Under the pieces are notes generated by a model that had not been told where the DNA came from, did no database searches, and saw only the letters and a list, made by a program, of their open reading frames with translations. Both the position numbers and the translations under genes were made by a program. Positions 32,820 to 38,461 of a stretch of 64,000 nucleotides of DNA are shown piece by piece. Source of the DNA: Pedobacter sp. Bi126 (GTDB lineage: Bacteria > Bacteroidota > Bacteroidia > Sphingobacteriales > Sphingobacteriaceae). The stretch spans positions 1,178,001 through 1,242,000 of the forward strand of contig NZ_CAKKMS010000001.1 in assembly GCF_918698245.1 (NCBI RefSeq). The letters are read 5' to 3'. Within the stretch, counting starts at the first letter, position 1; each line of letters starts with the position of its first letter.

Positions 32820-33338
32820 TTATTTAATATTAACCGGAACAGAAATTTTATCCCATTCTAAAGCGAATCCGCTTTTGGTAATTTTATAAACTAAACGCTC
32901 TTGTGTAGCTTTTAATGCTTTTGTTTTAACATCAACACGTAAAGCATCTTTAGCTTCTTCGTATTTGTAAGCACCCCATTGTTTTGGTTCCTTGTTAAAA
33001 ATAGCTGTCCAGGTTCCGCTTTCTTTAGGGATTAAAAAGAAACTGTATTTTCCTGCTGCCAAAGGTTTACCTTCAACTACGATATCTTTATCGGTTTCGA
33101 AAGTAGTAGCCTCGTTTGCACCTGCACGCCATACTTTATCAAAGGCTTCTAAACCGCCCCAGATTTTACGTCCTTTTACAGCAGGGCTGCTGTAGGTGAT
33201 GGTAATGGTTGCACCTTTAACTTTTCCCGTTGCTGTAGCCGCAGGACTTGGCTTAGGCTGAGCATCTTGTGCCATTGCACTTACAGAAATAGTAATTGCT
33301 GTAAATAGCAATGCGATTGATTTAATCATCGTTTTCAT
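32820..33338 (-). CDS. DUF2911 secreted protein
   Basis: A 172-aa protein with a signal peptide ending [68 protein letters not shown] and [16 protein letters not shown] are the DUF2911 pattern. The family is widespread in Bacteroidota; its function is unknown. It has its own terminator and is probably monocistronic. Confidence 0.88.
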
Positions 33339-33482: not shown

Positions 33483-34106
33483 TTATTTCTTTCTTCCAAC
33501 AAATCTGATTACTGAGCCCAGGCCGCTATGAAACAAACCCTCATTCAGTTCAATTTCTTTTTCTTCAAGCGCCAGAACCTCATAATTTTCGAAATCAGTT
33601 CTTATTTCCTCAATTGAGAATAACATGTCGATTTCTTTTGGCCCACCAACTTTTTCGTTTTTGGCAAGATAATCAAGATGTTTCTTGCTAAAAGCTTCGA
33701 AAATAAGCAAACCGCCATTGCGTAAATAATTACTCAGTATTTTATGGTAAGTTGATTTAATCGCCGATGGAAAGTGTGCATAAATTAAGGCAATGGCATC
33801 AAACTGTTCAGCTTTATAGTCCAGCTCTTGGAGTTCGCCCACCTGGTAATCAATGCTAACGTTATTGTTTTCTGCGAGTTGAAGTGCTTTATTCTTTCCT
33901 TCAATACTGATATCAAAGGCCGAAACCTTCCAACCGAGTTTAGCTGCAAAAACGGCATTTCGGCCTTCTCCTTCTGCCGGAAAAAGTATTGTTCCGGTAT
34001 CGAGCTGCATCAACTGTTCTCTTAAATAGTTATTCGGTTGTTCGCCATAAGCAAACTCATCGGCACTGTATCGGTCATTCCACCTGTCAAGCCAAGCTTC
34101 GTTCAT
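33483..34106 (-). CDS. Class I SAM-dependent methyltransferase
   Basis: A 207-aa protein. The SAM-binding motif I is [20 protein letters not shown], with motif II VSAFDIS and motif [14 protein letters not shown]. The opening [21 protein letters not shown] and [20 protein letters not shown] resemble the TehB/SAM-methyltransferase subgroup that acts on small molecules. GEGRNA in place of the usual GxGxG is normal for this subgroup. Substrate unknown. It lies 91 bp downstream of the symporter gene; a GCAGCA/TGCTGC hairpin in the gap may separate the transcripts. Confidence 0.8.
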
Positions 34107-34197: not shown

Positions 34198-35892
34198 TTA
34201 TTTGTCGACTACCGTTTTTGGATTAGAAAACAAGAGGCCAATTACCGAAAACATAATTACTGCTGCTGCACCGATTACATTGAGCCAAAGGAATGAAACA
34301 ATATCGAACTCATATACTGCTACAACGGCAATTTCGGATAAGATGGCTGCAATAAATACGATTGGTCCGTTTATCTTTTTGAAATAAAATGCCACTAAAA
34401 AAATACCAAGAATTGGCCCATAAAAGAGCGAGCCCAGTACATTAACGGCTTCGATTAGCGAGCCCATCTGTGTAGCAAACATGGCAACAGCTATTGAAAA
34501 AACACCCCAGGCCAAAGTATGTAAACGGCTATATTTCAGTTCAGTCTCGTCGTCTACTTCTTTTTTACCAAAAATGAGGTGTACATCTTTTAACGAACAG
34601 GCAGCAAGTGAATTCAGCGCTGCAGAAATAGATCCCCAACTGGCCAAAAAAATGACGGCGAAAAGCAGGCCGATCATTCCAACTGGAAGGGTATTCTTTA
34701 CAAAGTACAAAAAGATATAATTGGTATCGGTTTTCTCCGCATTGTAATTCGACTTGTTAATTGCCTCTTCTACCCTGCCGTGCAGTTCTTTCACCTGCTT
34801 TTGGGTTGATTTAAAATCCGCTATTGAAGAATTTAAAGATGGTAATTGCTTTTCCTTTTCTATCAGGATATTTTTTGATTGCTGGTTAAATTTCTGTGCT
34901 AAAGCATTATGTTCTTTCTCGAAAGCAGCCGCCTGCTGTGGCTGTGTTTCTTTTAAATACTGATAAGAACGCTCATTAAAATAAATCGGTGCCGGCTTTA
35001 ACGAGAAGAAAGCAAACAATAATGCACCGATTAACAGGATAGCGAACTGCATCGGGATTTTAACCAGTCCATTCAAGAGTAATCCCATTTTTGCATTGGT
35101 ATTGTCTTTCGCGGTAATGTATCTTCCTACCTGGCTCTGATCTGTCCCAAAGTAAGAAAGCGCAAGGAAAAAACCTCCGATTAAACCACTCCAGATATTG
35201 TATTTATCCTTCCAATCGAATTCGGTGGTAATTACATTTAATTTACCCGATTTCCCGGCAAGGTAAAGGGCGTCTTTAAATCCGATTCCATTAGGCATGT
35301 GCTGCACCAAAAGATATCCGGCAAAGGCCATTGTTCCTAAAATGATCAAAAACTGCAGTTTCTGTGTGTGTGCAATTGCTTTTGCACCACCAACATAGGT
35401 ATAAATCAACAAAATCCCTCCGGTAAGTACGTTGGTTAAATAAATATTCCAGTTTAAAACGCTCGAGAGGATAATACTTGGTGCATAAATGCTGATCCCT
35501 GTCGATAATCCACGCGAAAACAGAAACAGCAACGAAGTTAAAACCCTTGTTTTTTTATCAAAACGGTTTTCCAAATATTCGTAGGCGGTGTATACATTCA
35601 ACCTTTGAAAAATCGGGATGAAAGTAATGCAAATCACAATCATTGCCAACGGCAGGCCAAAATAATACTGCACGAAGCGCATGCCATCGGTATAAGCCTG
35701 CCCTGGTGCTGATAAAAAAGTAATGGCACTGGCCTGCGTAGCCATAATCCCTAATAATACAATATACCAGGGCATTTTATTATCGGCCTTTAAATAGGAA
35801 GCATTGCTTTTTTGCCCACGACCAATAAAAACACCATAGGTTACCACCGCAAGCAAAGTAAATATCAGTACCGCCCAATCGATATTACTCAT
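34198..35892 (-). CDS. Sodium:solute symporter (SSS family)
   Basis: A 564-aa membrane protein with about 13 TM spans. MPWYIVLLGIMATQASAITF, NVYTAYEYLENRFDKKTRVL, SYFGTDQSQVGRYITAKD and ASWGSISAALNSLAACSLKD are SSS-family signatures. A cytoplasmic or periplasmic helical insert at about 330-390 (ALAQKFNQQSKNILIEKEKQ) is Lys/Gln-rich. Members import sugars, sialic acid or amino acids with Na+. The ATG overlaps the TGA of a 34-aa membrane peptide gene (ATGA), which itself overlaps the deacetylase gene, so all three form a tightly coupled operon. Confidence 0.85.
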   Translation of the reverse strand: MSNIDWAVLIFTLLAVVTYGVFIGRGQKSNASYLKADNKMPWYIVLLGIMATQASAITFLSAPGQAYTDGMRFVQYYFGLPLAMIVICITFIPIFQRLNVYTAYEYLENRFDKKTRVLTSLLFLFSRGLSTGISIYAPSIILSSVLNWNIYLTNVLTGGILLIYTYVGGAKAIAHTQKLQFLIILGTMAFAGYLLVQHMPNGIGFKDALYLAGKSGKLNVITTEFDWKDKYNIWSGLIGGFFLALSYFGTDQSQVGRYITAKDNTNAKMGLLLNGLVKIPMQFAILLIGALLFAFFSLKPAPIYFNERSYQYLKETQPQQAAAFEKEHNALAQKFNQQSKNILIEKEKQLPSLNSSIADFKSTQKQVKELHGRVEEAINKSNYNAEKTDTNYIFLYFVKNTLPVGMIGLLFAVIFLASWGSISAALNSLAACSLKDVHLIFGKKEVDDETELKYSRLHTLAWGVFSIAVAMFATQMGSLIEAVNVLGSLFYGPILGIFLVAFYFKKINGPIVFIAAILSEIAVVAVYEFDIVSFLWLNVIGAAAVIMFSVIGLLFSNPKTVVDK

Positions 35893-35993
35893 GCCCAGAA
35901 TTTAGTAAACAGGTAATAAAATACAATCTGAAATACCAGCGCCAAAGCGAGTAAAATATACCAGGTATTCCAGTTTTTGAATTGATTTTTCAT
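35889..35993 (-). CDS. 34-aa single-TM peptide between deacetylase and symporter
   Basis: The product begins MKNQFKNWNTWYILLALALV, continues with a hydrophobic and aromatic stretch (FQIVFYYLFT), and ends KFWA. One TM span with a basic N-terminus is predicted. Its ATG shares a base with the deacetylase stop (TGATG). Its TGA overlaps the symporter start (ATGA). Such double coupling is very unlikely by chance. Some SSS symporters have a small membrane partner (for example DUF4212 or YhdT with PanF), so this may be a tiny symporter subunit; that role is inference. It is too short for usual gene finders. Confidence 0.75.
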   Translation of the reverse strand: MKNQFKNWNTWYILLALALVFQIVFYYLFTKFWA

Positions 35994-38461
35994 CACTTCC
36001 CAGCTGATAAAAAGTTAAAGAACAACCTAGCTGCACCTACATTTCCGGCAGGCAATTGCCTGAAAAAAGCTAAAGGTGTATAAATAAAATTCCCTTTGCC
36101 ATATTTTGCATACAGCGTCGATCCTTGAAGCGGTTCTTCATCGGTATCGTGCATCTCGAAAAGCGGTTCGTATTTGGCATCCCATTTATCAGGGAAATAA
36201 GCACCGCGCTCCTGCACCCATCCTTTAAAATCGTCAGCAGTAATTTTATTGGGGTAATTTAACAGCCTATGTTCAGGTTTTAAAAATTTAACTTCTGCAT
36301 TTTCTTCGGTCACCCTTTTACCACTGATGCTAAACGGATAAACACCAAAATCCTGTAGTGCCATATCTTGTGTGGTATTGTACTGCATCACAATGGTTCC
36401 ACCGTTTTCTACGTAACCGCGCAAAGCAGTTTGCCAGTTTTTAATTCTTTTTTCCGTATTGATTACCCTTACTCCTGTTACCACGGCATCGTAACTGGCC
36501 AGTTTTGTTGGGTTAAGAATATCAGCTTCTGTTAATACATCAACTTGCAAACCTGCCTGTCTTAAAAACTCGGGGATCAGATCTCCGGCACCTTCAATAT
36601 ACCCAACTTTTTTCGCCAGTACCTTTACGTCTCCTTTAATCAACCAGGTTGTGGCCGGAACAAAATACTGTAGTGTTGGCAAATGAGGATACTGAATCAA
36701 TACCTGTCCTTTTGAATATTCATTCGATTCTGATGAGAAAACAGCTTCTAATTTATTCTGGCTGGTTTTAATTTTGGCTAAATCTTCAAGCGGAAGAAGG
36801 AAATTCATCGTATTGATGGTATGCTCTGCCAGGTTGATCCCTTGAAAGGTTTTCACCACCTGGTTGCCGATTTTGAAACTAACCTTACCATAATTGATAT
36901 TTTTATTGGCTTTTAAACGAAGACTAACATTTAAAGCTTCTTTTTCTTTAGCGAAATAAACTGGCTCGCTAAAACTTAAATCGAGCGCGGGGATGATCCT
37001 GAGGGCTTCTACGACATCACCTTTAACAGGATCTAATTTTTTATAAGATAAAGGCAATCTGACTTCAAATTTTTCAGATGCTATTTTTAACGACAATAAA
37101 ACATTAATTGGCGATTGCATTTCCGGAAGCCCGATTAAAGTATCATTAGCTACGCTGAATGTTGCCGCATCTTTTGCAGGCTTAGCTAACCAATAAGGTT
37201 CAGTAAGTGCCGCGCCTGCCGGAATCTGGATTTTACGTTCAATGGTAATCAGCGAGTCGTTAGCTAGCTTTCTATTTAAATTATCCGTCTGGTTTAACCA
37301 GTTTACATTTTCAATCGTAATGGGGGTGGCCGATCTTGAAATTAAGTTTAAACGAAAATTATAACTATTGCCAGCAATTGCTTCGGGTTGATTGGTTACC
37401 ACCTCGCCCATAAAACCTATACTGCTTAAAATGATGTTATCGATAGCCGCAAGCTTATCTTTTCTCAAGGCTGCATCCTGCAATTCAGCAATTTTCTTTC
37501 TCAGCATCAACAGTCCGTGCAGGCTCTTATCGGGTTGGTTATAATTGAAAGATAATAGTATAATGTCAATCAGCTCATCAATATCGCCTATACCTTTGTC
37601 TGACCAGTTAAGGCTTAAGCCATCAAACAAAGTTCTTTTAGCAGGATCGCCTAAAACGTTTGTAAAATAATCGGAACGTACACCAGCTACCGACTGTGTT
37701 CCTGCTCCCTGGCTTTTGTGTAAACTTCGGCTTAATCCTGCCAGCTCACCATAACCCATTCCCAGTTGTGCGTCGTATTGCCCAACAGTTGCCTTTAACT
37801 GATTTTCGGCTGTGGTATTTACCGAACCAAACCTAAATGTGTTCCACAATAGTCTTTTTGGTTGCCAAACAGATACATATTTAAGTTGGTTTGGAAACAT
37901 ATTTTTATCAGCAGCAGCCTTAAAAGCCTTCTCCGCAACAACAGCAGAAGCGGCATGCTGACCGTGACCCGCAGCTGCAGTAGGCGGGAATCGGCAGATA
38001 ATTACATCCGGTCTAAATTTTCTGATCACCCAAACCACATCGGCGGTAATGCTATCGGCATCCCACTGTTTAAAAGTATCGTTGGTATTTTTAGAGAAGC
38101 CGAAGTCGATTGCCCTGGTGAAAAATTGTTGTGCACCGTCCAATCTACGGGCTTCCAAAAGTTCGTGTGTTCTGATCAGGCCTAAGGCTGCACCTTGTTC
38201 GGTGCCCAAAAGGTTTTGCCCACCGTCTCCCCTGGTAAGCGACAAATAAGCCGTTTCGACATTTTGATCGTTGATTAACCAAGATAACAAACCAGTATTC
38301 TCATCATCGGGGTGAGCAGCCAGATATAAAACTTTCGGAAGGTGTTTTAACGTTTTTATCTCTCTATAAATTTCAGAAGATTTGGCTGGGCGTACTTGTT
38401 GGGCAGCACAAAAAACTGCTGGAAAGCAAAATATGAATATTGCGGTTAGTCTCTTAAACAT
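35993..38461 (-). CDS. Secreted PIG-L/LmbE deacetylase with GATase-like C-terminus
   Basis: An 822-aa exported protein (signal ending near VFCAA). The N-terminal PIG-L domain has LAAHPDDENTGLLSW (His50, Asp52, Asp53) and SLTRGDGGQNLLGTEQGAAL. RFPPTAAAGHGQHAASA near residue 165 provides a later Zn-ligand His. A middle beta region follows. The C-terminal part (about 630-820) resembles a ThuA/GATase1-like fold (VVTGVRVINTEKRI, YVENGGTIVMQYNT). PIG-L enzymes remove N-acetyl groups from GlcNAc-type sugars. With a symporter encoded next, the operon probably deacetylates and imports an amino-sugar compound; the substrate is not known. Confidence 0.85.
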   Translation of the reverse strand: MFKRLTAIFIFCFPAVFCAAQQVRPAKSSEIYREIKTLKHLPKVLYLAAHPDDENTGLLSWLINDQNVETAYLSLTRGDGGQNLLGTEQGAALGLIRTHELLEARRLDGAQQFFTRAIDFGFSKNTNDTFKQWDADSITADVVWVIRKFRPDVIICRFPPTAAAGHGQHAASAVVAEKAFKAAADKNMFPNQLKYVSVWQPKRLLWNTFRFGSVNTTAENQLKATVGQYDAQLGMGYGELAGLSRSLHKSQGAGTQSVAGVRSDYFTNVLGDPAKRTLFDGLSLNWSDKGIGDIDELIDIILLSFNYNQPDKSLHGLLMLRKKIAELQDAALRKDKLAAIDNIILSSIGFMGEVVTNQPEAIAGNSYNFRLNLISRSATPITIENVNWLNQTDNLNRKLANDSLITIERKIQIPAGAALTEPYWLAKPAKDAATFSVANDTLIGLPEMQSPINVLLSLKIASEKFEVRLPLSYKKLDPVKGDVVEALRIIPALDLSFSEPVYFAKEKEALNVSLRLKANKNINYGKVSFKIGNQVVKTFQGINLAEHTINTMNFLLPLEDLAKIKTSQNKLEAVFSSESNEYSKGQVLIQYPHLPTLQYFVPATTWLIKGDVKVLAKKVGYIEGAGDLIPEFLRQAGLQVDVLTEADILNPTKLASYDAVVTGVRVINTEKRIKNWQTALRGYVENGGTIVMQYNTTQDMALQDFGVYPFSISGKRVTEENAEVKFLKPEHRLLNYPNKITADDFKGWVQERGAYFPDKWDAKYEPLFEMHDTDEEPLQGSTLYAKYGKGNFIYTPLAFFRQLPAGNVGAARLFFNFLSAGK

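Follow-up and report, generated by a model that had tools for sequence, protein, structure and literature searches.

Transporters of the SSS (SLC5-like) family are usually treated as single-chain machines. Small membrane proteins are encoded beside several bacterial SSS symporters, with YhdT (DUF997) next to PanF, YjcH (DUF485) next to ActP and a DUF4212 protein next to VC_2705, and these known small partners are comparatively large, spanning the membrane with about two TM helices. Similarly, a DUF3311 gene adjoins the gene of an MctP-type symporter and is co-regulated with it (PMC9100948). In a review of the prokaryotic SSS members, the words subunit, accessory and oligomer are absent. A partner with one helix is known from human SGLT2 (SLC5A2), where the single TM helix of MAP17 (PDZK1IP1) lies against TM13 of the transporter and is required for its function (PMC10803289). 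In other transporter superfamilies, tiny single-TM proteins bind their transporters as well: AcrZ binds AcrB (PMC10710835), and KdpF binds KdpABC and is co-transcribed with the transporter genes (PMC10710835; PMC3618439). Small single-TM partners of transporters, such as AcrZ, MgtS and KdpF, are a known kind. The peptide family described here and its attachment to an SSS symporter across the Bacteroidota, however, appear to be undescribed in the family libraries and literature that we searched, and we found no description there of the peptide or of a PIG-L/SSS unit.

The peptide gene is located in a window of 64,000 nucleotides from Pedobacter sp. Bi126, which is the whole stretch of DNA that was analyzed and to which all coordinates refer. 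The relevant features are as follows:

32820..33338, minus strand: DUF2911 protein (PF11138, E 2.7e-49), conserved downstream in almost every Pedobacter and Chryseobacterium locus
33483..34106, minus strand: SAM methyltransferase-like gene, present between the SSS and DUF2911 genes only in some Pedobacter
34198..35892, minus strand: SSS-family sodium:solute symporter of 564 aa (PF00474, TIGR00813), proposed partner of the peptide
34723..34995, minus strand: symporter insert of ~90 residues (about 300-390) that separates core helices 7 and 8, found in every full-length subfamily member examined
35889..35993, minus strand: gene for a 34-aa single-TM peptide (MKNQFKNWNTWYILLALALVFQIVFYYLFTKFWA, then stop), whose product is the candidate accessory subunit for the symporter
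35993..38461, minus strand: PIG-L-type deacetylase of 822 aa with an N-terminal signal-peptide-like stretch (PF02585, E 8e-16), a usual but not obligate neighbor

The peptide MKNQFKNWNTWYILLALALVFQIVFYYLFTKFWA is encoded by a minus-strand ORF running from 35993 to 35889 (34 aa plus a TGA stop, 105 nt), while the plus-strand reading of the same interval holds no matching ORF. The initial annotation had described a start codon sharing one base with the PIG-L stop and a stop codon overlapping the symporter start, and both overlaps can be read directly at the junctions on the minus strand. At the PIG-L/peptide junction, GGAAGTGATGAAA (GTGATG), the A of the PIG-L stop codon TGA is common to the ATG of the peptide, an overlap of 1 base. 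At the peptide/SSS junction (GGGCATGAGTAAT, GCATGAGT), the TGA of the peptide lies inside an ATGA together with the ATG of the symporter, an overlap of 4 bases. Gene prediction with Prodigal usually applies a minimum of 90 nt, and the 105-nt ORF lies above that length.

To follow the ORF among relatives, a close set of 80 loci from Pedobacter and Chryseobacterium was collected by a symporter scan of one-per-species genomes; the named relatives nearest to this locus are Pedobacter species. Two checks that had been proposed from the sequence, namely a search for short ATGA-overlapping frames before the symporter and a comparison of substitution types, both bore the gene out. In all 80 loci, the ORF is intact, with a length of exactly 34 codons and the ATGA overlap at its end, and the +1 and +2 frames of the gene contain stops. 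Pairwise pN/pS was 0.16 when pooled (0.10 within Pedobacter and 0.20 within Chryseobacterium), indicating purifying selection on the peptide. Likewise, site entropies of 0.38 at first, 0.20 at second and 0.91 at third codon positions place most of the variation at the third. As a control, the same criteria were applied to 112 other genes in related loci, each coding for 250 aa or more. The raw result was 8/112, but all 8 were SSS genes of the same subfamily that had slipped past the filter, leaving 0 of 104 true controls. In addition, the same 6.29-Mb genome contains nine other SSS genes, and no such ORF lies at the start of any of them.

Beyond the close set, a first wider profile, built from close homologs, led to 40 places being fetched. 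As these were selected by their peptide matches, they are biased for estimating frequencies; in 39 of them, the symporter (46-90% identical) lies directly downstream and a PIG-L gene upstream. Unbiased frequencies were therefore taken from 296 Bacteroidota genomes, using a symporter search (E<=1e-60) and a wider peptide profile (alignment A3, E<=0.0011), whose listings indicate one common sample. The symporter was found in 114 of these genomes and the peptide in 101, with both in 100 (Fisher p 4e-62), and in 96 of the 102 peptide loci, the peptide gene immediately precedes that of the symporter in the same orientation. The homologs measure 32-50 aa and occur across the Bacteroidota, with 15 family labels at the profile level, while no homolog was found among plasmid records. 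A single genome (G057) has the peptide without a full symporter, and there the start of a symporter still adjoins it. Another (G324) carries two symporters of the subfamily and two peptides, one beside each. The 14 symporter-only genomes divide into 9 in which a small, divergent hydrophobic ORF occupies the corresponding position, which is weaker evidence, 4 without a detectable peptide (G143, G166 and G174, from one genus, and G192), and G288, which was assigned to neither class. As the symporter is retained in these 4 genomes although no peptide is detectable, the peptide is not absolutely essential. In five genomes, the peptide is conserved but unlinked, on the same contig as the symporter: the distance is ~15 kb in four genomes (G056, G068, G084 and G130; loci L310-L313 and L319-L322), whose sequence immediately upstream of the symporter holds no peptide homolog, and 108 kb in the fifth (G305, L315). 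Conservation despite this separation implies that the peptide can function in trans, as a protein.

Residue conservation and charge were analyzed in 57 diverse peptide homologs. Y12 is present in all 57 and W8 in 55, and the low-entropy residues (W8, Y12, L15, L19, I23, Y26, T30 and W33) form a stripe on one face of the helix. Indeed, the helical periodicity of the conservation was significant in a permutation test (p 0.0004), with the same value in the close set. Lysine and arginine together average 2.98 on the N side of the helix versus 0.68 on the C side, with an N-side excess in 55 of the 57 homologs, which confirms the initial picture of a basic N-terminus and one hydrophobic span. This distribution of positive charge predicts an N-in/C-out topology for the peptide. 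SSS symporters have their N-terminus outside, as is established for the family. With the C-terminus of the peptide also outside, both termini would share one side of the membrane.

The symporter itself matches PF00474 (E 1.8e-32; 113.2 bits against a cut-off of 22.8) and TIGR00813 (205.7 bits against a cut-off of 184), which places it in the SSS/SLC5 family by sequence. It falls far below the cut-offs for VC_2705 (TIGR03648, 29.7 vs 320.75 bits) and PanF (TIGR02119, 26.9 vs 328.05 bits). For the peptide, no Pfam or NCBIfam family was found at E<=1, nor any relevant match for eight of its homologs at E<=10. The systems to which the initial annotation had pointed, DUF4212 and YhdT/PanF, are therefore useful as analogs only: like them, and like YjcH/ActP and DUF3311/MctP, the locus encodes a small membrane protein beside an SSS symporter, but the peptide matches none of the Pfam models of these partners (DUF997, DUF485, DUF3311, DUF4212). 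The nearest solved SSS structures are SiaT, SMVT, SMCT1 and NIS, with which the symporter shares the SSS core fold (phmmer E 1.9e-44 to 5NV9). Unlike these, it carries an extra insert after helix 7, which measures 87-136 residues across the subfamily. An AlphaFold2 model of the symporter from a shallow alignment reached a pLDDT of 39, and only the insert hairpin in it is usable; the insert is predicted as a helical hairpin (helices 307-316, 318-348 and 353-380, pLDDT about 60-80) and is probably periplasmic.

The PIG-L protein matches PF02585 over model positions 1-128 of 129 and has the zinc motif AHPDDE near residue 50. Among the 80 close loci, 70 have the peptide start and the PIG-L stop no more than a few bases apart. 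The remaining 10 have a gap of 67-751 bp between the two, while the ATGA between peptide and symporter is intact in every one of them. In 7 of these 10, all from Pedobacter, the gap holds a PIN-domain (VapC-like) gene (L002, L006, L011, L022, L042, L045 and L047; PF13470, E 5e-17, for one of the seven). In several other families, the peptide and symporter genes are preceded by unrelated genes instead of PIG-L. In other words, the peptide follows the symporter and not PIG-L. Of the coupling on both sides claimed at the outset, the symporter side thus stands, while the PIG-L side is split in these 10 loci and lacks an upstream PIG-L gene in whole families. A unit built around PIG-L was rejected for the reason that this linkage breaks. 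A mirror-tree comparison of divergence between the peptide and either partner gave partial r values of 0.34 for the symporter and 0.28 for PIG-L, which does not separate the two. The proposed role of the operon in handling a deacetylated amino sugar is putative and derives from the PIG-L annotation.

Several further observations concern the neighborhood. Between PIG-L and the peptide, many Bacteroidota relatives have a glycine-rich small membrane ORF of 50-66 aa (e.g., MEKKAPSRTRTDMALVITILIGLGLGFLIKRLHVGLLLGLGIGLAASAMLRRR; L148, L153, L161, L167-L170, L173, L174, L176 and others), which matches no known small-subunit family. Between Pedobacter and Chryseobacterium, which belong to different families, the symporter is ~90% identical and the adjoining PIG-L only ~70% (L002-L081), which suggests that the symporter is unusually constrained or was recently shared. 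The DUF2911 neighbor is also found in some distant loci, and its conservation suggests that it belongs to the same pathway as the symporter. The SAM methyltransferase-like gene is probably not part of the unit.

We propose, with a probability of roughly 0.7, that the 34-aa peptide serves this SSS symporter subfamily as a dedicated accessory subunit consisting of a single helix. A lone helix with one conserved face, nearly always encoded beside one type of transporter, is best read as a packed subunit. The peptide would insert N-in/C-out, its conserved face would pack against a peripheral symporter helix, and the symporter would depend on it for stable folding, assembly or full activity, while translational coupling through the ATGA overlap would make the two proteins together at a defined ratio. 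Co-occurrence, position, purifying selection and the conserved helix face thus lend strong support to the very small symporter subunit suggested by the initial annotation, with physical interaction being the part that we infer. In role, the peptide may be MAP17-like, binding the symporter and affecting transport. Both have one TM helix and are dedicated to one type of SSS/SLC5 transporter, but MAP17 is longer, eukaryotic and has regions outside the membrane on both sides, and its binding has been shown, whereas for the peptide we infer it. As the peptide had no Pfam match of any kind at E<=1, the likeness is one of analogy. AcrZ/AcrB and KdpF/KdpABC differ further, as they belong to other transporter superfamilies and have no sequence relation to the peptide.

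Other explanations were weighed against this reading. Given the very short frame and the absence of a database family, one might suspect a chance ORF without function, held open by constraints on the neighboring genes. The overlaps of 1 and 4 bases are too short to explain the conservation of the peptide, however, and 34 codons intact in 80/80 loci, a pN/pS of 0.16 and homologs in at least 15 families make the probability of this negligible; it was rejected, and the 34-aa ORF is a real gene under selection. Alternatively, only the act of translation could matter, with the ORF serving as a leader that opens the start site of the symporter in cis. The ATGA overlap, shared by 80/80 close relatives and many distant ones, would fit such a function, but it would not account for the strong selection on the amino acid sequence and the one conserved helix face. 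Moreover, other families show spacings of -4 to about 90 bp between peptide and symporter, and in five genomes the two genes lie 15-108 kb apart. These unlinked copies largely refute a purely cis-acting leader, which we rejected as very improbable.

Two alternatives grant the peptide a function as a protein. As a regulatory adaptor, it would bind the symporter and control its turnover or inhibit it, in the manner of MgtR, MgtS and SgrT, and not form part of its structure; small single-TM proteins that inhibit transporters or steer their degradation are indeed known (PMC10710835). We consider this unlikely, as near-universal co-occurrence with the symporter and a fixed one-to-one co-translation upstream of it, from which the peptide is almost never separated, suit a subunit better than a regulator that depends on conditions. 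The peptide could also serve as a docking helix, holding the periplasmic PIG-L deacetylase at the symporter and thereby channeling the product of the enzyme. PIG-L lies upstream in most loci, its divergence and that of the symporter track the divergence of the peptide about equally well, and the symporter has a helical insert on the periplasmic side. In several families, however, peptide and symporter persist without an upstream PIG-L gene. The insert is present there too, making it a trait of the subfamily and not by itself a dock for PIG-L, and only a very short part of the peptide would extend into the periplasm, so that we regard docking as improbable.

Returning to the accessory subunit, we lean, by a modest measure, towards a broader proposal, namely that most of this large SSS subfamily in the Bacteroidota works as a transporter of two chains, the second being a single helix of 32-50 residues, that this arrangement is probably a convergent counterpart of SGLT2-MAP17, that it escaped notice owing to the shortness of the gene, and that homologs expressed without the peptide would be unstable or inactive. 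If true, the existence of a near-obligate helix partner throughout a phylum would change how SSS transporters are cloned, purified and modeled. It would also offer a minimal bacterial system for what a lone helix such as MAP17 does for the SLC5 fold, and would add a conserved protein family that is absent from Pfam and NCBIfam.
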